Positions 42,114 through 52,265 of a stretch of DNA of 64,000 bases are shown one piece after another. Source of the DNA: Bradyrhizobium manausense (GTDB taxonomy: Bacteria > Pseudomonadota > Alphaproteobacteria > Rhizobiales > Xanthobacteraceae); NCBI RefSeq assembly GCF_018131105.1, contig NZ_JAFCJI010000001.1, forward strand, positions 186,001-250,000, read 5' to 3'. Under the pieces are notes generated by a model. That model was not told the DNA's origin. It saw only the letters and a list, made by a program, of their open reading frames with translations, and ran no database searches. The first letter of the stretch is position 1; every line of letters starts with the position of its first letter. Made by a program: the position numbers and the translations under genes.

Positions 42114-42701
42114 CTAGCCGGTCGCGCGCGGGAGCATGCCCTTTGCGGTGATCTCCGCGGAAAGCTCCTCGATCGTCTTGCGCTGCTCCATGGCTGATCT
42201 TCGGATCAGCGCAAAGGCGGCCGGCTCGGCCAGCGCGTGCGAATGCATCACCTGGAGAACGGCGGCCAGAACGACGCGGCGGGACCGCAGACGTTGCTCG
42301 AGCTTGCGCACCTGTTGTTTCAATTCAATGGTGCGTTCGTTGCGCTCGAACGCCATGACGAGCGCCGCGTAGATGCCAGCCGAACGCAGCGGTTTGATCA
42401 GGAACGAGGCCGGGTCGAGCTCGAACACCAGCTTCAGGCGGCTCGGCGTCTCGGTGCCGAGCAGGGCGATGACCGGGCAGCGCGCCAGGAACGCGCGTTG
42501 CACCGGGTGCAGCAAGGGCAGGAACTCGTCGTCGATCAGCGCCAGGTCCGGCGTAAGATCGACCGGTTCGCCTGGCGTCCACGCGATGCCTTCGATGCCG
42601 AGACGTTCGAACTGACGCCGCACGATGGTCGCGTCGCGTTCATCCTTGATGGCGACGAGCGCCTTGCGTCCGCGCAGCGAAAATGAAGACGGTCTGCTCA
42701 T
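42114..42701 (-). CDS. ANTAR-domain RNA-binding antiterminator (AmiR-like)
   Basis: This 195-residue protein has a receiver-like N-terminal domain that lacks the phosphorylation set (about 10-115). A coiled-coil follows (ERNERTIELKQQVRKLEQRLRSRR, about 118-141), then a C-terminal ANTAR three-helix domain (VLAAVLQVMHSHALAEPAAFALIRRSAMEQRKTIEELSAEI in pieces). This is the plan of AmiR, which binds a leader RNA to prevent termination. It overlaps the AmiC-like gene by four bases. The likely target is the leader of the divergent amidase operon. Confidence 0.85.
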   Translation of the reverse strand: MSRPSSFSLRGRKALVAIKDERDATIVRRQFERLGIEGIAWTPGEPVDLTPDLALIDDEFLPLLHPVQRAFLARCPVIALLGTETPSRLKLVFELDPASFLIKPLRSAGIYAALVMAFERNERTIELKQQVRKLEQRLRSRRVVLAAVLQVMHSHALAEPAAFALIRRSAMEQRKTIEELSAEITAKGMLPRATG

Positions 42702-43873
42702 TTGACAACCCGCAGATGCGGCGCGTTCGGCGATACGCTGCCCGCCGAGGTTTCCCTCGAAGGGCTGGCGGCAACGTCGAGCTGCGTCAAGTAAGGATCA
42801 GGCTTAACAGGCGCGTCGGCTTCCCAGAAGATATCAAACTGTCCCTGCGGATTGGATACGGCAAGCCGCGGTGTAAGGACGCAATGGTTGTTGCCGCCGT
42901 CGATCCAGACTGGTCCTTGCGGCGAATTGTATCGATAGCCGGCTGCGGCGCGTCGCACCTCGGCGATGTCGGACGTGCCCGCGCGTTGCAATGCACGCGC
43001 CAGCAAGTAGACCGCGACATAAGCGGACTGCCCATCGACGGAGGGGCTGCCGTCGCCGCCATAGCGCGCCTTCCAGCGCGCCACAAAGGAGCGGTTCTCG
43101 GCCAGATGTATGCTTTCGAAGTAAGCCGACGACGTGATGCAGCCGGCCGATGCCGGTCCGACGATCGCGAGTTCCGGCTCGCAGATGCTGCAACTCAACA
43201 TCGGGATGTCCAGCCCTGCAGCCTTGGTGCCGGCGTGGAAGGCGCGGATGAAATCGTAACTGGAGCTTCCGACCAGCGTGTTGAACACGATCGGCGGCTT
43301 CTTGCGGACGATCTCGTCGACGATGTGTCCGACGGCGCTTTCGCCGAGTTCGAGCAGCCGTTCGGCGATGATGTGGCCATCTGCTGCGCTCACCAATTCC
43401 CGCGTGACGCGGTTGGTTTCCCACGTCCAGACGTAGTTGGAGCCGACGCAGAATATTTCCCGCGACAGATTGTCGAGGACATAACGGATGAGCGGCAGGA
43501 CATTGTGATTGGGCGATGCGCCGACATAGATGACGTTGTCCGAGCACTCGAAGCCTTCGTAGCGGGCGGGATACCAGAGCAGTCGATCGGTGCGCTCCAC
43601 GATCGGCAGCACTTGTTTGCGCGATGCTGACGTGTAGCAGCCGATGATGTGCTCGACGCCCACGTTGCGGATGAGGTCGTCACAGACGGTGTGATATTCG
43701 GACACGATGCCGCGGGGGTCGCGGACGTGAGCAGTGATCGAAAATTCGAACTCGGCCTGGTTGTTGATCTCGTCGACCGCCATCATGGCGCTCTTGAGAA
43801 TTTCCCGGCCCATGGCTTGATAAGGCCCGGACTGAGAACAGATAATGCCAACGGGAACAGACGGTTTTGTCAT
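42698..43873 (-). CDS. Amide sensor protein (AmiC-like, periplasmic-binding fold)
   Basis: This 391-residue protein has the type I periplasmic binding fold of urea/amide binders: GIICSQSGPYQAMGREIL, IIGCYTSASRKQVLPIVER, LWYPARYEGFE and YVGASPNHNVLPL. It has no signal peptide when started at ATG 43873 (MTKPSVP), so it is cytoplasmic, as AmiC is. AmiC binds amides and releases the antiterminator AmiR. The neighbouring ANTAR gene, coupled by a four-base overlap, makes the pair clear. The C-terminal 30 residues are variable. Confidence 0.85.
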   Translation of the reverse strand: MTKPSVPVGIICSQSGPYQAMGREILKSAMMAVDEINNQAEFEFSITAHVRDPRGIVSEYHTVCDDLIRNVGVEHIIGCYTSASRKQVLPIVERTDRLLWYPARYEGFECSDNVIYVGASPNHNVLPLIRYVLDNLSREIFCVGSNYVWTWETNRVTRELVSAADGHIIAERLLELGESAVGHIVDEIVRKKPPIVFNTLVGSSSYDFIRAFHAGTKAAGLDIPMLSCSICEPELAIVGPASAGCITSSAYFESIHLAENRSFVARWKARYGGDGSPSVDGQSAYVAVYLLARALQRAGTSDIAEVRRAAAGYRYNSPQGPVWIDGGNNHCVLTPRLAVSNPQGQFDIFWEADAPVKPDPYLTQLDVAASPSRETSAGSVSPNAPHLRVVK

Positions 43874-44131
43874 CGACGACTTTCGGCAGCACAACACTGA
43901 GATGAAATCATCATCGCCAATGATAGCGCAAGTGGCTTGCCGATTTGCTGCGCAGCACTCTCGAAATTTAGGCAGACAGCATCGTTGACAACGGGATAGG
44001 CAGTTACTTAGACTTTTCTCCTACGGGGACTCCTATCGAACCTCGCGTGCGTCGATCTGGCCGATGACGTCCAGCTCTTTGTACTAAGTGCTTCGTTCGA
44101 TTTCGGACCCTAAGCGACAGATCATAGCCGC

Positions 44132-44143
44132 GGCATTTGAGCC
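44132..44143 (+). promoter_or_regulatory. Candidate ANTAR-type hexaloop hairpin overlapping the terminator
   Basis: GGC-ATTTGA-GCC forms a small hairpin with a six-base loop beginning with A. Its 3' arm shares bases 44142-44143 with the terminator's 5' arm, so the two folds would exclude each other. The stem is short and loop position 4 is T, where ANTAR targets normally have G, so this is a weak candidate. Confidence 0.25.
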
Positions 44144-44181
44144 ATTCGTCACCTCATTCGGGAGGGACGGGTGGCTTTTTT
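44142..44181 (+). terminator. Intrinsic terminator in the amidase leader (attenuator)
   Basis: CCATTCGTC (44142-44150) pairs with GACGGGTGG (44166-44174), including two G-U pairs. An inner CCTC/GAGG helix closes the hexaloop ATTCGG, and C plus TTTTTT follow. It lies about 100 bases before the amidase start and on the same strand, in a 408-base leader without any gene. That position suits attenuation relieved by the AmiR-like protein. Confidence 0.75.
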
Positions 44182-44281
44182 CGTTTGCCGCCAGAGACAA
44201 GCTTGCGATGCGTCCGCGTCGCCAGATCGGTGACGCATGCGCGGGGACGAGTGTGTCGCATCGCGCGGGAGGATAAGAACG

Positions 44282-45682
44282 ATGGTGGCAACAGATCTTC
44301 ATTATCTCGGACTCGTCGATGTCGGACGGAAGATCCAGGCCAAGGAGCTGTCGCCGGTCGAAGCGACCAAGGCGATGCTCGGGCGGATCGAGAAGCTCGA
44401 CGGCAAACTCAAGAGCTTTGCTTGCGTGATGGCCGACTCGGCGCTCGCGGAAGCGGCGGCGGCTGAGAAGGAGATCGCGTCCGGCAAGATCAGGGGCCCG
44501 CTGCACGGCGTGCCGGTGGCGGTGAAGGATCTCTGCTGGGCCAAGGGCGCGCCTGCCGCGCACGGCATGACGATCCATCGCGATTTCCGCCCGGCCGAAG
44601 ACGCCACGGTGGTCGCACGGCTGAAGGATGCCGGCGCGGTCATCCTCGGCAAGCTGCAGCAGACCGAAGGCGCCTACGCCGATCATCATCCGAAGATCGA
44701 TCCGCCGAAGAATCCGTGGAACGCGGATCTCTGGCCCGGCGCATCCTCCAGCGGCTCGGGCGTCGCGACCGCCGCTGGCCTCTGCTTCGGCTCGCTCGGC
44801 ACCGACACGGGCGGATCAATCCGGTTTCCGTCCGCGGCCAACGGAGTCACCGGGCTCAAACCGACCTGGGGACGCGTGAGCCGTTACGGCGCATTCGAAC
44901 TTGCTGCGACGCTGGACCACATCGGCCCGATGGCGCGAAGCGCGGTCGATTGCGGCGCCATCCTCGGTGTGATCGCGGGGCAGGATCCCAAGGACACGAC
45001 ATCGGTTCCGTTGACCGTGCCCAATTATCTCGCGGGCCTGACCGGCGATCTGCGTGGCGTCACGGTCGGCGTCGACCGGCGCTGGACCAGTGAAGGCACT
45101 GACGGTGATGCGGCGAGGGTGCTGAGCGAGGGATTGCGTGTTGCGGCGGATCTCGGCGCGAAGATCAAGGAAGTCAATTTCCCCGATCCCAAGGCGGTCA
45201 TCGACGACTGGTTTCCGCTCTGCGGCATCGAGGTCGCTGTCGCGCATGAGGAGACTTATCCGGCACGCAAGGACGAATATGGTCCTGCGCTCGCGGGCCT
45301 GCTCGACCTCGGCCGGCAGCAATCCGGCATGGACTATCAGAAGATCGTGCTCCGGCGCGAAGCGTTTCGCGGAGCAGTGCGTGTGCTGCTCGAGTCGGTC
45401 GATCTCCTCGCGGTTCCTGCGCAGGCCTTTGCAGCGCCGACCCTCGCCAAGATGGCGGCGCTCGGCGAGGACGCCTCGCTGATCGCAGGCCTGCTTCGCT
45501 TCACGTGCCCGTTCGACATGACGGGAAGTCCGACCGTGACGTTGCCGGGTGGCTTCGCGGCGAATGGCGGTCCGGTCGGCTTCCAGTTCGTCGGCCGTCA
45601 TTTCGACGAAGCCGGCCTCGTGCGCGCGGGCGATGCGTTCCAGCGCGTCACCGACTGGCACAAGCGTCATCCCGGGATCTGA
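44282..45682 (+). CDS. Amidase (amidase-signature family)
   Basis: This 466-residue enzyme hydrolyses amides to carboxylate and ammonia by a Ser-cisSer-Lys triad. Lys82 lies in GVPVAVKDLCW. The cis-Ser is in GASSSGSGVAT (about 156-157) and the nucleophile is Ser179 in GTDTGGSIRFPS. The length is typical. I chose ATG 44282 with GGGAGGA upstream. It is the first gene of the amide operon and closely resembles the amidase at 52352. The physiological amide is unknown; a short aliphatic amide is suggested by the neighbours. Confidence 0.92.
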   Translation: MVATDLHYLGLVDVGRKIQAKELSPVEATKAMLGRIEKLDGKLKSFACVMADSALAEAAAAEKEIASGKIRGPLHGVPVAVKDLCWAKGAPAAHGMTIHRDFRPAEDATVVARLKDAGAVILGKLQQTEGAYADHHPKIDPPKNPWNADLWPGASSSGSGVATAAGLCFGSLGTDTGGSIRFPSAANGVTGLKPTWGRVSRYGAFELAATLDHIGPMARSAVDCGAILGVIAGQDPKDTTSVPLTVPNYLAGLTGDLRGVTVGVDRRWTSEGTDGDAARVLSEGLRVAADLGAKIKEVNFPDPKAVIDDWFPLCGIEVAVAHEETYPARKDEYGPALAGLLDLGRQQSGMDYQKIVLRREAFRGAVRVLLESVDLLAVPAQAFAAPTLAKMAALGEDASLIAGLLRFTCPFDMTGSPTVTLPGGFAANGGPVGFQFVGRHFDEAGLVRAGDAFQRVTDWHKRHPGI

Positions 45683-45699: not shown

Positions 45700-46698
45700 A
45701 TGTCAGCAGAAGACTGGTTGAAGACATCCATCATGGCCAAGCGCGCGGTCTCCAAAGGGGCGACCGGCACGACCCATAGTCTGACGATCGAACAGCAGGG
45801 CGGCTTCCATTACGTCTACGGTCCCTATGCCAAGCCGACCCTATCGATCGACCCCGGCGGGGTGGTCGTGGTCGAGACAGAAGACGCCTTCGGCGGCGTG
45901 CTCACCAAGGAGAGCGACAGCCCCACCGCCAAATTGAATTTTCCCTTTCTCAATCCGCAATGCGGGCCGATCGCGGTGAAGGGCGCCAAGAAAGGCGATT
46001 GCCTTGCGGTCTACATACGCGACGTCGAAACCCGTGGCGAGCAGCCGGCCGGCACGACCTGCATCATTCCGGAGTTCGGCGGGCTAGTCGGAACAAGCTC
46101 GACGGCGCTTCTCAACCCGCCGCTGCGGGAGCGCGTGAAGAAGCTGCATGTCGACAGGAACGGTATCCGCTGGAACGACAAGCTCACGCTGCCCTACGAA
46201 CCGTTCATCGGCACCATCGGTGTCTCGCCGGAGATCGAGGCGATCTCCTCACTGCAGCCGGACTATCACGGCGGCAACATGGATCTGCCCGACGTCGCGC
46301 CCGGCGCGATCATCTATTTCCCGGTGCATACCGATGGCGGGATGCTCTACGTCGGTGACTGCCACGCAACGCAAGGCGACGGCGAGCTTTCCGGCGTAGC
46401 GCTGGAGCAGCGCGCGACCGTCACACTGCAGGTCGACCTGATCAAGAACTGGAGCTTCGCCTGGCCCCGGCTCGAGACCAAGGACTTCATCATGACGATC
46501 GGTAGCGCGCGTCCGCTCGAGGACGCTGCCCGCATCGCCTATCGCGAACTCGTGCGGTGGATGGCGGCCGATTACGGCTTCGACGAGATCGACGCCTACA
46601 TGCTGCTCAGCCAGGCCGGCCGCATGCGTCTCGGCAACATGGTCGACCCCAAATACACGATGGGAGCATCGATCCTGAAGAACTACCTCAAGCCATGA
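45700..46698 (+). CDS. Acetamidase/formamidase family protein
   Basis: This 332-residue protein belongs to the FmdA/AmdA-type family, unrelated to amidase-signature enzymes. Motifs include VETEDAFGGVL, NPQCGPIAV, GGNMDLPDVAPGAIIYFPVHTDGGMLYVGDCHATQGDGELSG (in pieces) and the ending SQAGRMRLGNMVDPKYTMGA. The GDCHATQGDGE metal-binding motif is intact. It likely hydrolyses formamide or acetamide. It begins 17 bases after the first amidase gene, in one operon. Confidence 0.9.
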   Translation: MSAEDWLKTSIMAKRAVSKGATGTTHSLTIEQQGGFHYVYGPYAKPTLSIDPGGVVVVETEDAFGGVLTKESDSPTAKLNFPFLNPQCGPIAVKGAKKGDCLAVYIRDVETRGEQPAGTTCIIPEFGGLVGTSSTALLNPPLRERVKKLHVDRNGIRWNDKLTLPYEPFIGTIGVSPEIEAISSLQPDYHGGNMDLPDVAPGAIIYFPVHTDGGMLYVGDCHATQGDGELSGVALEQRATVTLQVDLIKNWSFAWPRLETKDFIMTIGSARPLEDAARIAYRELVRWMAADYGFDEIDAYMLLSQAGRMRLGNMVDPKYTMGASILKNYLKP

Positions 46699-46732: not shown

Positions 46733-47974
46733 ATGAATTCGAGACGAAAGTTAGGAATGGTTTTGCTCGGCGCCATGCTCGGTACGGCGGCGGCGGTGAG
46801 CGTTGCACGGGCCGCGGAGCCTCAGTTGAAGGTGGGGCTGCTCGAGGACGTGTCCGGCGACCTCGCCTTCATGGGCATGCCGAAGCTGCACGGCTCGCAG
46901 CTGGCCGTCGAGGAGATCAACAAGAGTGGCGGCATTCTGGGGCGGCAGATCGAGTTGATCCATCTCGATCCGCAGGGCGATAATGCCCGTTACCAGGAGT
47001 TCGGCCGGCGTCTGCTCAATCGCGACAAGGTGGATGTGCTGATCGGCGGCATCACCTCGGCCTCGCGCGAGGCGCTGCGCCCGATCGTCGACCGCACCTC
47101 GACGCCGTACTTCTACACCAACCAGTACGAGGGCGGCGTCTGCGACGCCAGCATGATCAGCATGGGCGCGGTGCCCGAACAGCAGTTCTCGACGCTGATT
47201 CCCTGGATGGTCGAAAAGTTCGGCAAGAAGGTCTATGTCATCGCCGCCGATTACAATTTCGGCCAGATCTCGGCGGAGTGGAATCGCAAGATCATGAAGG
47301 ATCTCGGCGGCGAGGTCGTCGGCGAGGAGTTCATCCCGCTCGGTGTGTCGCAGTTCGCGCAGACCATCCAGAACATCCAGAAGGCGAAGCCGGACTGGTT
47401 GCTGACGATCAACGTCGGTGCCGCCCAGGATTCGTTCTTCGAGCAGGCGGCCGCCGCCAACCTCAACCTGCCGATGGGCTCGTCGATCAAGATCATGCTC
47501 GGTTTCGAGCACAAGCGGTTCAAGCCGCCGGCGCTCAACAACATGCACGCGACCGCCAACTGGTTCGAGGAAATCGATACGCCGGAAGCGAATGACTTCA
47601 AGAAGCGCTGGCACGCAAAGTTCCCGGATGAGCTCTATATCAATGACATGGGCTACAATGCCTATAACGCGCTCTACATGTACAAGGCGCTGGTCGAGAA
47701 GGCGAAGTCGACCAAGCTCGAGGACATGCGCAAGGTGATCGCGACCGGCGATGCCTGCATCGACGCTCCCGAAGGCAAGGTCTGCATCGACCCGAAGAGC
47801 CAGCACACGTCGCACCGCATGCGCCTGATCTCGGTCGGACCCAAGCACGAGGTGACTGTGGAGAAGGACTACGGGGTGATCCAGCCATACTGGCTCGGCC
47901 AGATCGGCTGCGACCTCACCAAGAAGAACGACAAGGATCAGTACACGCCGAGTCATCTCCCTAACAAGTCATGA
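46733..47974 (+). CDS. Urea/amide-type ABC transporter substrate-binding protein
   Basis: This 413-residue precursor has a Sec signal peptide ending near ARA-AE (about residue 28). It has the branched-chain/urea type binding fold: VGLLEDVSGDLAFMGMPKLHG, VEEINKSGGILGRQIELI, IGGITSASREALRPIVDR and FYTNQYEGG. It resembles FmdD/UrtA-type binders of small amides, in line with the amidase genes on both sides. It delivers the ligand to the two permeases downstream. Confidence 0.9.
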   Translation: MNSRRKLGMVLLGAMLGTAAAVSVARAAEPQLKVGLLEDVSGDLAFMGMPKLHGSQLAVEEINKSGGILGRQIELIHLDPQGDNARYQEFGRRLLNRDKVDVLIGGITSASREALRPIVDRTSTPYFYTNQYEGGVCDASMISMGAVPEQQFSTLIPWMVEKFGKKVYVIAADYNFGQISAEWNRKIMKDLGGEVVGEEFIPLGVSQFAQTIQNIQKAKPDWLLTINVGAAQDSFFEQAAAANLNLPMGSSIKIMLGFEHKRFKPPALNNMHATANWFEEIDTPEANDFKKRWHAKFPDELYINDMGYNAYNALYMYKALVEKAKSTKLEDMRKVIATGDACIDAPEGKVCIDPKSQHTSHRMRLISVGPKHEVTVEKDYGVIQPYWLGQIGCDLTKKNDKDQYTPSHLPNKS

Positions 47975-48072: not shown

Positions 48073-48939
48073 ATGTCGGCTGAAGTCTTCTCGGTATTCT
48101 ATCAGTTCGCCGACGTGTTTGCGTTCCTCATTCTCTCGGCCGCAGGCCTCGCCATCGTGTTCGGCATGATGGGCGTCATCAACATGGCGCATGGTGAGTT
48201 CATCATGTGCGGCGCCTATGTCACGGTCGGCCTGGTGAACCTGGGCGTGCCGCTCGCGATTGCCCAGATCGTGGCTGCTGTGACAGCGGGACTCATTGGT
48301 GTCGTCGTCGAGTTCCTGGTCGTGCGACGCTTCTACAAGCGGCCGCTGGATTCACTGCTCGCGACCTGGGGCCTGAGCCTCATCGTGACGCAGTCGATGC
48401 TCCTGATCGTCGGCTCCGCTGTGCGAGGCATCGGGACACCGGAGGGAAGCTTTGCAATCGGCGGCTATACGTTCTCGACCTATCGCCTGGTGCTGTTCGG
48501 TTGCGCGGTGGCCGTGCTGGCCGGCCTCTACATCATCTTCATGAAGACACGGTTCGGCGTGATCGCCCGCGCGACCATGCAGAACGCCGCGATGGCGAAG
48601 GCGCTCGGCGCGCGCACCGGCCGCATCTATGCCATCAGCTTCGGGATCGGCACCGGCCTCGCCGGTCTCTGCGGGGCGCTGTACGCGCCGACCATGACGC
48701 TGATTCCGACCATGGGAGCGACCTTCGTGGTCGAGAGCTTCGTGACCGTCGTGATCGGAGGAGCGAACGTGCTGCTTGGAACGGCGCCGGCTGCGGTGTT
48801 CCTGGCGATGATCCGAATGGCGCTGAATGCGAGCTACGGCCAGATTATCGGGCAGATCGGCATGCTGGTGGCCGTCATCCTGATCATCCGCGTCCTGCCC
48901 GAAGGGCTCTCCAGCGTGCTGGTTCGGCGTGGGCGCTAA
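48073..48939 (+). CDS. Branched-chain amino acid/urea-type ABC permease (LivH type)
   Basis: This 288-residue membrane protein has eight or so spans and the family motifs LAIVFGMMGVINMAHGEFIMCGAY, MQNAAMAKALGARTGRIY and FVVESFVTVVIGGANVLLGT. It forms the membrane pore with the next gene product. It starts 98 bases after the binding-protein gene, separated by a stem-loop. Confidence 0.92.
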   Translation: MSAEVFSVFYQFADVFAFLILSAAGLAIVFGMMGVINMAHGEFIMCGAYVTVGLVNLGVPLAIAQIVAAVTAGLIGVVVEFLVVRRFYKRPLDSLLATWGLSLIVTQSMLLIVGSAVRGIGTPEGSFAIGGYTFSTYRLVLFGCAVAVLAGLYIIFMKTRFGVIARATMQNAAMAKALGARTGRIYAISFGIGTGLAGLCGALYAPTMTLIPTMGATFVVESFVTVVIGGANVLLGTAPAAVFLAMIRMALNASYGQIIGQIGMLVAVILIIRVLPEGLSSVLVRRGR

Positions 48940-48948
48940 GGGGAATCC

Positions 48949-50022
48949 GTGATGTTCAAGCTGCTGGAAGGCCCACAGACGCTCGGACGCGGCAAGATAT
49001 TCTGGTCGTGCTTCCTGATCGTGCTGGTAGGGGCGCTGACCTATCCATTGTTCGCGGACTCTTACGACGTCGGCAATTTCGCCTATTTCCTGATCTGGAT
49101 CTTCATGGCGCTCGGCCTCTGCCTGATGTGGGGCTATGGCGGCATGCTGTCGTTCGGCCAGACCTTGTTCTTCGGCATTGCCGGTTACGGCTATGGCGTG
49201 CTCGCGATCAACATGGGCGGTGGCACGGCAACGATCGCGGCGCTCGTGCTGTCCGTCGTTTTCGCGATGATCGCGGCGGCCATCCTCGGCTATTTCATGA
49301 TCTGGGGCGGCATCAACGGCATCTTCTTCGGCATCGTGACGCTGTCCGCGACGTTGGTTCTGGCCTTCTTCCTCGGCCAGACGGCCGGACCGGAATGGCA
49401 TATCGGCCCGGCACGGCTGAACGGTTTCAACGGCATGAAGGGTATGGACCCGTTGACCGTGGGCGACTTCTATATCGAGGGGTCAGCGCTCTACTACGTC
49501 ATGGTCGCGCTGATCGTGATCGTCTATCTGGCGCTGCGCATGCTGGTGAATTCGGGCATCGGCAACGTCATCGTGGCGACGCGCGAGAATCCGCAGCGGG
49601 CGGAGATGCTGGGCTATGATGTCCGAAAATATCAGTTGCTGACCTTCGTGATCGGCAGCGGCCTCGCTGGCTTGAGCGGCGCGCTGTACACGTCCTGGGG
49701 GCAGTTCATCACGCCGTCCAGCGTCGGCTTGCCGGCGGCTGCGATGCCGATCGTATGGGTGGCCTTCTCCGGCCGCAGCGATCTGACCGCGACGCTGGTC
49801 GGGTCGTTCCTGCTGCTGTTCGGCTTCCAGACCATTACGGTCTATAGCCAGCAGGCCGCGCTGGTGCTGATGGGCGGGCTGCTGCTCGCCACGGTGATGC
49901 TGGCACCGCAGGGCTTTGTGCTCGGCATCGGCAAGTTCGTCGCGGACCGATGGCACGGACGACGCCGGAATAACGTTGCCATCATGGCGGAAGCCGGCCG
50001 CCTGCAGTCGGAAAAGTCCTGA
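48949..50022 (+). CDS. Branched-chain amino acid/urea-type ABC permease (LivM type)
   Basis: This 357-residue membrane protein has about nine spans, with LMWGYGGMLSFGQTLFFGIAGYGYG near the N-terminus and the permease loop VATRENPQRAEMLGYDVRKYQLL. It starts at GTG 48949 or ATG 48952 after AAGGGGAA, nine bases after the LivH-type gene. It belongs to the amide transporter. Confidence 0.92.
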   Translation: MMFKLLEGPQTLGRGKIFWSCFLIVLVGALTYPLFADSYDVGNFAYFLIWIFMALGLCLMWGYGGMLSFGQTLFFGIAGYGYGVLAINMGGGTATIAALVLSVVFAMIAAAILGYFMIWGGINGIFFGIVTLSATLVLAFFLGQTAGPEWHIGPARLNGFNGMKGMDPLTVGDFYIEGSALYYVMVALIVIVYLALRMLVNSGIGNVIVATRENPQRAEMLGYDVRKYQLLTFVIGSGLAGLSGALYTSWGQFITPSSVGLPAAAMPIVWVAFSGRSDLTATLVGSFLLLFGFQTITVYSQQAALVLMGGLLLATVMLAPQGFVLGIGKFVADRWHGRRRNNVAIMAEAGRLQSEKS

Positions 50023-50024
50023 TC

Positions 50025-50744
50025 ATGGCGCTGGTCGAAGTCAAAGGCGTCTCCAAGCGGTTCGGTGGATTGACCGCCGTCTCCGGTGTCGACCTTACGG
50101 TCAACGCCGGCGAGGTTCATTGCCTGATCGGGCCAAATGGCGCCGGCAAGAGCACGCTGTTCAAGCTGATCGTGGGTCTCTATCCCCCGACCGAGGGCAG
50201 CATCCTGTTCGGCACTGTCGATATCACCAAGGAGCGTCCCTACGCGCGCGTGCAGCGAGGCATGAGCATCAAGATGCAGGCGCCGAGCGTGTTCAAGGAG
50301 CTCCCGGTCCGGCAGAACATCCAGACGGCGCTGCAGGATCGCGTGTCGGGCGCGGAACGCGTCGCCGAGGAAGATCGCCTGCTGACGCTGCTCAATCTCG
50401 CGGCGGAGAGCGGCAAGCTCGCGGGCGCGCTGTCGCACGGCCAGCAGCAATGGCTCGAGATCGGGATGGCGCTGGCGTTGAAGCCGCAACTCCTGCTGCT
50501 GGACGAACCGACGGCCGGAATGTCGCCTGAGGAAACCTTCAAGACCGGCGAACTGATCAAGTCGTTCAATGCCGATGGTATGACGGTGCTGGTCGTCGAG
50601 CACGACATGGCTTTCGTCCGTCAGGTCGCCCAGCGCGTCACGGTGCTGCATCTCGGCAAGATCTTCGCGCGCGGCGATCTCGGAAGCATCCTGCAGGACG
50701 AGAAGGTCGCGGAAATCTATCTCGGTAAAACCCATGCTCACTAA
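50025..50744 (+). CDS. ABC transporter ATP-binding protein (LivG/UrtD type)
   Basis: This 239-residue ATPase has Walker A GPNGAGKS, a Q-loop near IKMQAPSVFKEL, the signature LSHGQQQWLEI, Walker B LLLLDEPTAGM and the switch VVEHD. LSHGQQQ in place of LSGGQ is the form found in the urea transporter subgroup (UrtD). It starts two bases after the LivM-type gene. It energises uptake with the next ATPase. Confidence 0.93.
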   Translation: MALVEVKGVSKRFGGLTAVSGVDLTVNAGEVHCLIGPNGAGKSTLFKLIVGLYPPTEGSILFGTVDITKERPYARVQRGMSIKMQAPSVFKELPVRQNIQTALQDRVSGAERVAEEDRLLTLLNLAAESGKLAGALSHGQQQWLEIGMALALKPQLLLLDEPTAGMSPEETFKTGELIKSFNADGMTVLVVEHDMAFVRQVAQRVTVLHLGKIFARGDLGSILQDEKVAEIYLGKTHAH

Positions 50745-51459
50745 ACCCAATCCCGCCGGTCGGATTCTGGACGTCTCGGAATTGTGGGCCGGATATGGCG
50801 CGACGCCGATCCTGCAGGGTGTCACCATGTCGGTCTCGCGCGGCGAGATCGTCGGCGTGATCGGCCGCAACGGCGTCGGCAAGTCGACCCTGATGCGCTG
50901 CCTGATCGGCCTGCTGCAGACATGGCGCGGCACAATCAGCTTCATGGAGCAGGACGTCACGAAGCTCGAGGCCGATGCGCGGGCGAGGGCGGGATTCGGC
51001 TACATCCCGCAAGGGCGTGACGTGTTTCCGCAGATGACCGTTGAAGAGAACCTTCAGGTCGGGGAGCTGATCGGCGGTCCCGGCGGCAAGAAGCTGCCGG
51101 AGCTCGTCTATGAGTATTTCCCGCGGCTGAAGGAACGCCGCCGGCAGGCGGCAGGCACCATGTCGGGCGGCGAGCAGCAACAGCTTGCCATCGGCCGCGC
51201 GCTGGTCGGCAATCCATCCCTGATGATTCTGGACGAGCCGTCCGAAGGCATCCAGCCCTCGATCGTCCAACACATCTGCGAGGCGCTGAGATCGTTCCGC
51301 AACGAGCTCGGAACCACGATCATCTTCGTCGAGCAGAACCTCGATACGATCCTGGCGATCGCCGAGCGCTGTTACATCATGGAGAAGGGCAAGATCACGC
51401 AGTCGCTGGCGGGCGACGAAGTCAACGAGGACAATGTTCGCGAGCAGCTCCTGCTCTGA
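50734..51459 (+). CDS. ABC transporter ATP-binding protein (LivF/UrtE type)
   Basis: This 241-residue ATPase has Walker A GRNGVGKST, FGYIPQGRDVFPQMTVEENL (Q-loop), the signature MSGGEQQQLAIGRAL, Walker B SLMILDEPSEGIQP and the switch IFVEQN. These are typical of LivF/UrtE. Its start overlaps the LivG-type gene by 11 bases. The subunit set (binder, two permeases, two ATPases) is complete. Confidence 0.93.
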   Translation: MLTKPNPAGRILDVSELWAGYGATPILQGVTMSVSRGEIVGVIGRNGVGKSTLMRCLIGLLQTWRGTISFMEQDVTKLEADARARAGFGYIPQGRDVFPQMTVEENLQVGELIGGPGGKKLPELVYEYFPRLKERRRQAAGTMSGGEQQQLAIGRALVGNPSLMILDEPSEGIQPSIVQHICEALRSFRNELGTTIIFVEQNLDTILAIAERCYIMEKGKITQSLAGDEVNEDNVREQLLL

Positions 51460-51497: not shown

Positions 51498-52265
51498 ATG
51501 GACATGGATCTGGGACTCAAGGGAGCAAAGGTTCTCGTCACGGGTAGCACCAAGGGCATCGGCAGGGCAATCGCCGACACTTTCGCGGCGGAAGGCGCCA
51601 ATGTCGGCATCTGTGCGCGCAACCAGGCCGACGTCGACAGCGCTGTCGCCGCGATCAAGATGAAAGGCGTCGCTGCGTTCGGCAGTTCGGTCGACGTCTC
51701 CAATGGCCCGGCACTCAAGGCCTGGGTCGAGGACATGGCCTCGAAGCTCGGTGGTATCGACATTGTCGTCGCCAATGTCAGCGCGTTGTCGATCGGACAG
51801 GATGAGGAGAGTTGGGAGAAGGAGTTCTCCACCGACATGATGGGCACGGTCCGGCTGGTCAATGCGGCGATGCCGTATCTGGAGAAGAGCAGGGCCGCCG
51901 CAATCGTCACCATCTCCAGCGTGTCGGGTCGCGAGGTCGATTTCGCCAGCGGTCCCTACGGCACGTTCAAGGCGGCGATCATCCACTACACGCAAGGACT
52001 CGCCTTCCAGCTTGCCGGCAAGGGCATCCGCGCCAACTCCGTGTCGCCGGGCAACACTTATTTCGAGGGCGGTGTCTGGAACCAGATCAAGGACGGCAAT
52101 CCCGAGCTGTACAAGACCGCGCTGGCGCTGAATCCGACCGGCCGCATGGGCACACCGCAGGAGATGGCGAACGGCGCGGTGTTCCTCGCCAGCAAGGCGG
52201 CGAGCTTTATCACCGGGACCAATCTCGTGGTCGATGGTGCGCTCACCCGCGGGGTGCAATTCTAG
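51498..52265 (+). CDS. Short-chain dehydrogenase/reductase (SDR)
   Basis: This 255-residue NAD(P)-dependent oxidoreductase has the cofactor loop VTGSTKGIGRAIADTFAAEG (TGxxxGIG), the NVSA segment (N-x-S-A in place of NNAG), catalytic Ser in TISSVSG and YGTFKAA (YxxxK), and a C-terminal VDGALTRGVQF end. It lies between the transporter and the second amidase on the same strand, so it is probably in the operon. Its role there is unknown; it might process an aldehyde or hydroxy product of the amide. Confidence 0.9.
   Translation: MDMDLGLKGAKVLVTGSTKGIGRAIADTFAAEGANVGICARNQADVDSAVAAIKMKGVAAFGSSVDVSNGPALKAWVEDMASKLGGIDIVVANVSALSIGQDEESWEKEFSTDMMGTVRLVNAAMPYLEKSRAAAIVTISSVSGREVDFASGPYGTFKAAIIHYTQGLAFQLAGKGIRANSVSPGNTYFEGGVWNQIKDGNPELYKTALALNPTGRMGTPQEMANGAVFLASKAASFITGTNLVVDGALTRGVQF

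Follow-up and report, generated by a model that had tools for sequence, protein, structure and literature searches.

Organization of the Locus

The window, a stretch of 64,000 nucleotides from Bradyrhizobium manausense, contains an AmiC-AmiR gene pair that is divergent from an operon for an amidase, an FmdA-like protein and a Urt-type transporter (Table 1). The two regulator genes overlap by four bases (42698-42701), and a leader of 408 bases (43874-44281), facing the operon, separates the AmiC start codon from that of the amidase. Both features belonged to the original prediction and are confirmed by the coordinates. The leader was also described there as free of genes, in agreement with the absence of a conserved small open reading frame from the nine leaders inspected, and no Rfam family matches it. 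A longer AmiC reading frame, starting from the GTG at 43897, was rejected; it is unsupported by the relatives, most of which conserve the ATG.

Table 1. Features of the AmiC/AmiR locus and its leader, in window coordinates.
Feature	Positions	Strand	Details or basis
AmiR-like gene	42114-42701	-	195 aa; receiver-like domain, coiled coil, ANTAR domain
AmiC-like cytoplasmic sensor gene	42698-43873	-	391 aa; ATG at 43873
Repeat-like box ATTTGCTGCGCA ... ATTTAGGCA	43943-43974		alignment of 48 leaders
Sigma70-type promoter TTGACA-18-TAGACT	43985-44014	+	10/12 matches
Helices enclosing P1	44025-44110	+	GGG/CCC; TCGAAC 44036-44041 with GTTCGA 44095-44100
P1 hairpin	44054-44077	+	hexaloop GATGAC 44063-44068; C.U mismatch below closing C-G
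P2 hairpin GGC[ATTTGA]GCC, putative antiterminator	44132-44143	+	RNAalifold; homology to amiE leaders
Intrinsic terminator	44141-44181	+	stem 44141-44175, then six T 44176-44181
RBS-like GGGAGG, before amidase	44267-44272	+	read from sequence
Amidase-signature family amidase, first operon gene	44282-45682	+	PF01425, 334 bits
Acetamidase/formamidase-family (FmdA/AmdA) protein	45700-46698	+	PF03069, 122 bits
UrtA-like substrate-binding protein	46733-47974	+	TIGR03669, 627 bits (cut-off 494.8)
UrtB, UrtC, UrtD, UrtE-like subunits	48073-48939, 48949-50022, 50025-50744, 50734-51459	+	TIGRFAM Urt models, below cut-offs
SDR oxidoreductase, possible last operon gene	51498-52265	+	PF13561

The switch was predicted to act on transport and two amidase families, beyond the short amidase operon of the known system. 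The gene content fits, with PF01425 and PF03069 members and five Urt-like genes following the leader, although control of a transporter would have a precedent in the amiE-amiC-amiR genes with ABC transporter genes that PMC13209695 reports on plasmids. The FmdA/AmdA-family protein scores far under the NCBIfam FmdA equivalog cut-off (77 vs 500). An SDR that is ~62% identical to the one following the transporter genes adjoins AmiR in the sister genus (L164:1508-2260 and L165:1723-2475). A second layout in the same family, with AmiC-AmiR-UrtABCDE-FmdA on one strand, is seen at L167 and L168:5588-13185. At L168 the AmiC start is preceded, at about 20 bases, by a strong terminator; the regulators would then have an attenuator of their own.

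A single scan across 84,980 genomes resulted in 53 loci. In 47 of these (Bradyrhizobiaceae), AmiR-AmiC and the amidase are again divergent, and the leaders measure 385-438 bases. Together with the window, these 47 loci gave the set of 48 leaders that was aligned. In this set, pairwise identity peaks at P1 (0.87), at P2 with the 5' arm of the terminator (0.92) and at the 3' arm of the terminator (0.90), and drops to 0.62 after the terminator; conservation is low both upstream of the promoter box and beyond the terminator.

Promoter and Terminator

The promoter is strongly conserved. TTGACA and the 18-bp spacer are present in all 48 leaders, and the -10 hexamer is TAGAAT or TAGACT in 45 of them. 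It sits upstream of the terminator in every leader, which makes a transcription start downstream of 44181 unlikely. Just upstream of the -35 hexamer, the repeat-like box is better conserved than its surroundings and reads GAAATTTGTGCA in most relatives; it is a possible activator site.

The terminator stem consists of 10 bp, starting from G44141 and pairing with 44166-44175, and an inner 4 bp. The segment 44142-44181 folds at -19.5 kcal/mol, compared with -8.9 +/- 2.1 kcal/mol in shuffled sequences (z -5.06; 0/200 as good). The strong hairpin with six T residues that had been noted at 44142-44181 is thus present, with the correction that its stem begins one base earlier. Its distance to the first amidase, predicted as about 100 bases, is exactly 100 bases from the last T to the ATG. 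A similar stem with an intact T run is found in 47 of the 48 orthologous leaders (-19.1 to -26.2 kcal/mol), and in the remaining one the stem is kept and the T run is broken. Over the alignment, 99.4% of the cells in the terminator stem are paired.

Hairpins P1 and P2

In the window, P1 reads GATCTGG-C-C[GATGAC]G-T-CCAGCTC, with the loop in brackets. Two-sided changes occur in three of its pairs among 47 leaders. The arms are GAATTTGG/CCGAATTC in Rhodopseudomonas and ATTTGCTTGG/CCGGGCAAAT at the sister-genus loci L164 and L165; these letters differ yet still pair, indicating that the stem is kept while the sequence changes. The inner C.U mismatch, the closing C-G and the G at loop position 4 (G4) are constant across Bradyrhizobium and Rhodopseudomonas. 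In 46/47 leaders, an alternative reading of the P1 loop is a tetraloop with a closing G-C pair. The helices that enclose P1, GGG/CCC and TCGAAC/GTTCGA, have 100% and 98.9% of their cells paired (RNAalifold, pair counts), and one of their pairs shows two-sided changes. Taking the antiterminator set as a whole, two-sided changes were counted in 17 cells, compared with 5.0 in shuffles (0/500). This covariation rests on few independent events because the leaders are closely related.

P2 is obtained by RNAalifold by itself once the 3' arm of the terminator is omitted, as in the nascent transcript. The GCC at 44141-44143 belongs both to the P2 stem and to the terminator base, and therefore the two folds exclude each other. 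The P2 stem is invariant (47/47 leaders), so it has no covariation to support it; its position, its conservation and its homology to amiE leaders argue for P2 as a putative antiterminator. The spacing between P1 and P2 is 54 bases, or about 21 after the enclosing helices, compared with about 10 in amiE leaders.

Hexaloops in the Window, the Sister Genus and amiE Leaders

According to PMC3369931 and PMC8934654, ANTAR targets carry an A at position 1 (A1) and a G at position 4 of their hexaloops, and these positions are required in the EutV and NasR systems. The two hexaloop hairpins that the original prediction expected of an ANTAR target are present as P1 and P2, the second overlapping the 5' arm of the terminator, but neither loop in the window follows the A1/G4 rule completely. 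P1 lacks A1 and P2 lacks G4. Among the 47 leaders, the P1 loop has G4 in all and A1 in none (G in 46, U in 1), and the P2 loop has A1 in all and G4 in two.

In the sister genus, the P1 loop is GATGAT at L164 and AATGCT at L165, and the P2 loop is ATGGAA. L165, which is the same homologous locus, therefore follows the A1/G4 rule fully (AATGCT, ATGGAA). Its P1 has a C.C mismatch, and over CCAATGCTGCC L165 and the amiE leader L145 have the same sequence. The loops of L164 and L165 link the leaders of the window type with amiE leaders.

The amiE leaders were found via the AmiE model NF009802 in a Pseudomonas-type genus; in one of these genomes (G486), amiE and amiR are on the same strand, about 4 kb apart. 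The P1 hairpin GCTGCC[AANGYT]GCCAGC is common to ten amiE leaders; its closing C-G stands above a C.C mismatch, and in most of the ten P1 is enclosed by GACATC/GATGTC. Their P2, GGC[AAYARR]GCC, stands at the foot of the terminator with its GCC in the terminator base, and its loop keeps A1 and lacks G4. A strict A1/G4 hexaloop scan of the amiE leaders gave irrelevant matches only: the mismatch under the closing pair hides the hairpins from it, and they were seen by alignment instead. At another locus, in a Pleomorphomonas MAG (L084:4340-4770), a terminator before AmiC has a P2-like GAGC[AATCGA]GCTT at its foot, a loop that again has A1 together with G5, ahead of a different gene set.

The AmiR-Like and AmiC-Like Proteins

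The AmiR-like protein matches the Pfam families ANTAR (39.4 bits, cut-off 27.3) and AmiR_N (30.8 bits, cut-off 27). Its closest solved relative, both by sequence and by fold (AlphaFold2 model, pLDDT 83), is AmiR of Pseudomonas aeruginosa (1qo0), and the next nearest fold is that of RNA-bound EutV. In EutV, five residues contact the RNA, with K149 contacting the G4 of P2 (PMC8934654). Three of these positions are kept in the AmiR-like protein (R142=R141, E160=E159 and M172=M171) and one is changed conservatively (Y164=F163), while Lys149 is replaced by Val148. The joint loss of K149 and of G4 in P2 is suggestive only, because the AmiR at L165 (L015) carries Ile at this position despite G4. We propose tentatively that in Bradyrhizobium and Rhodopseudomonas an ANTAR protein of the AmiR type and the one RNA that it targets have departed together from the A1/G4 code by co-evolution, with P1 becoming G1-A-Y-G4-A-C, P2 becoming A1-U-Y-N-G5-R and Lys149 being lost. 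The sister genus would then keep the ancestral code, and the change in specificity could be traced stepwise. This proposal is quite possible, though we lean slightly against it.

The receiver residues Asp57 and Lys103 are invariant in 23 relatives of the AmiR-like protein and are lost in the Pseudomonas-type AmiR. Their retention makes the sequence compatible with phosphorylation of AmiR. NasT of the same genome also keeps the receiver Asp, and NasT is controlled by dissociation of the complex with NasS (PMC3795266); the two AmiR residues are therefore no proof of phosphorylation.

The AmiC-like protein matches Pfam Peripla_BP_5 at 370 bits (in the longer form from the GTG) and AmiC 1pea at 202 bits, in an alignment that begins at residue 8. 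It has no N-terminal or signal-like extension before the ligand-binding domain. It also matches 8tg1, an extracellular ligand-binding receptor, at 248 bits, and urea-binding proteins at about 170-177 bits, among them the UrtA-type protein 8hic (177 bits). An amide as inducer, as originally predicted, is something that we infer rather than demonstrate; candidate ligands are short amides, formamide and urea.

Distribution of the Element

The covariance searches used model R2, which replaced an RNAalifold model without P1 (R1). In the genome of the window, R2 finds one strong site, this leader, with an E value of 1.4e-31; the next best has 2.5, and no further target stands above noise. Over 295 genomes of the family, sites at E <= 1e-8 are found in 12. 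Each of these belongs to the 13 genomes in which AmiR has an orthologue (threshold E <= 2e-48). In the thirteenth (G129, locus L165), the leader is recognisable by eye. The other 282 genomes, which have no AmiR orthologue, gave no site but one weak match, in G230 (E 0.008), which on inspection of the sequence looks like chance. The element thus appears to go with AmiR, as one target per genome, and not to belong to a NasT regulon. This co-occurrence arises in part because both are linked at one locus.

Proposed Mechanism and Alternative Explanations

The leader is very probably a transcription attenuator of the AmiC/AmiR type. Computed from the genomes are the terminator, the conserved promoter hexamers, the covariation in P1, the mutual exclusion of P2 and the terminator, the homology with amiE leaders, the single target per genome and the co-occurrence with AmiR. 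The original prediction that AmiR overrides the terminator is well supported by the upstream promoter, by P1 and the competing P2, by the plan shared with amiE leaders and by the AmiR co-occurrence. From the promoter at 43985-44014, transcription would start near 44021. By default it would stop in vivo at the terminator and leave a leader RNA some 160 bases long. When no ligand is present, the cytoplasmic AmiC would keep AmiR inactive, as the solved complex 1qo0 suggests. Binding of a small, presumably amide-like ligand by AmiC would release AmiR, and the ANTAR dimer of the freed AmiR could then bind P1 and P2. In this way, the P2 stem would take up the GCC that the terminator needs, resulting in readthrough into the genes for the amidase, the FmdA-like protein and the Urt-type transporter.

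A terminated RNA of 160 bases would be expected from the anatomy either way, also if the terminator were unregulated and ended either some unrelated transcript or a small RNA made on its own from the promoter at 43985, with the promoter of the operon downstream of 44181. This is very improbable. Identity past the terminator is low (0.62), and the overlap between P2 and the base of the terminator is just that of amiE leaders. Between 44015 and 46954, the promoter scan also shows no sigma70-like site on the forward strand, although a weak promoter may lie in 44182-44281. Attenuation by a leader peptide or a ligand-binding riboswitch, acting without AmiR, would account for a leader that is structured and conserved, but is extremely improbable, as there is no conserved upstream open reading frame in the nine leaders and no match in Rfam, and what is conserved amounts to two small hairpins, of the kind targeted by ANTAR proteins, next to a gene for such a protein.

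It is also very improbable that the terminator is overridden by the NasT-like protein (G000:C1:2106205-2106363) in a nitrate-responsive leader. This protein is the product of the only other ANTAR gene in the genome and has a canonical ANTAR sequence, and in Bradyrhizobium diazoefficiens NasT regulates several leaders (PMC6759348). In the nasT mutant of that species, blr2922-2926 and blr2921 are up 19-32-fold (PMC6759348). The former have the order SBP-permease-permease-ATPase-ATPase, like the operon, and blr2921 is hypothetical; their identity with the operon is a lead only, because bll2918 of B. diazoefficiens is annotated as glycerate dehydrogenase. However, a rise in a nasT mutant has the wrong sign for direct antitermination by NasT, and the element is found only in genomes with an AmiR orthologue, adjoining AmiR and once per genome.

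Relation to Known Systems and Significance

The closest known system is the amidase operon amiE-B-C-R-S of P. aeruginosa, in which an AmiC-like sensor and an AmiR-like ANTAR protein are likewise neighbours. Both systems have the same order of promoter, P1, P2 and terminator, a P2 GGC/GCC stem shared with the terminator base and, in P1, a mismatch under the closing C-G. In contrast to P. aeruginosa, the regulators in the window are divergent and lie outside the attenuated operon, and the amidase-signature protein, FmdA and the Urt transporter take the place of AmiE and AmiS. The loops also differ (P1 GAUGAC instead of AANGYU, P2 AUUUGA instead of AAYARR), the distance between P1 and P2 is longer, and the receiver residues Asp57 and Lys103 are kept. 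The eut leaders of Enterococcus faecalis, which carry the dual hexaloop ANTAR motif and are controlled by EutV, resemble the window in the ANTAR fold, the two hexaloop hairpins and the P2 embedded in the terminator, but differ in activation by a histidine kinase, in A1/G4 in both loops and in the presence of Lys149. In B. diazoefficiens, of the same genus, NasS/NasT combines a solute-binding sensor with a receiver-ANTAR protein and leader antitermination at nos, nap and nirA; it differs in sensing nitrate, in being a separate ANTAR protein and in having no association with the leader of the window. The plasmid amiE-amiC-amiR-ABC transporter operons described in PMC13209695 also combine AmiC/AmiR with an amidase and a transporter, but with an AmiE amidase, another transporter and all genes in one operon. 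The less usual features of the window are its drifted loops and the divergent position of the regulators, away from the operon that is attenuated.

No earlier description of this leader was found in a literature search that covered little of the subscription journals. The supplementary tables of PMC3369931 list ANTAR targets in 1902 genomes, and the leader may already be a prediction among them. By sequence comparison, the architecture is that of amiE control, the layout and the cargo differ, and the loops depart from the published code.

The findings widen the range of AmiC/AmiR attenuation by a large group of bacteria, plant-associated and photosynthetic. The element can be used as a search model. 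The natural leaders form a series, from canonical loops in L165 through mixed loops in L164 to the drifted loops of Bradyrhizobium, with which one can test what hexaloop positions ANTAR proteins read. In these bacteria, the switch would control whether short amides, or nitrogen sources resembling urea, are taken up and broken down.
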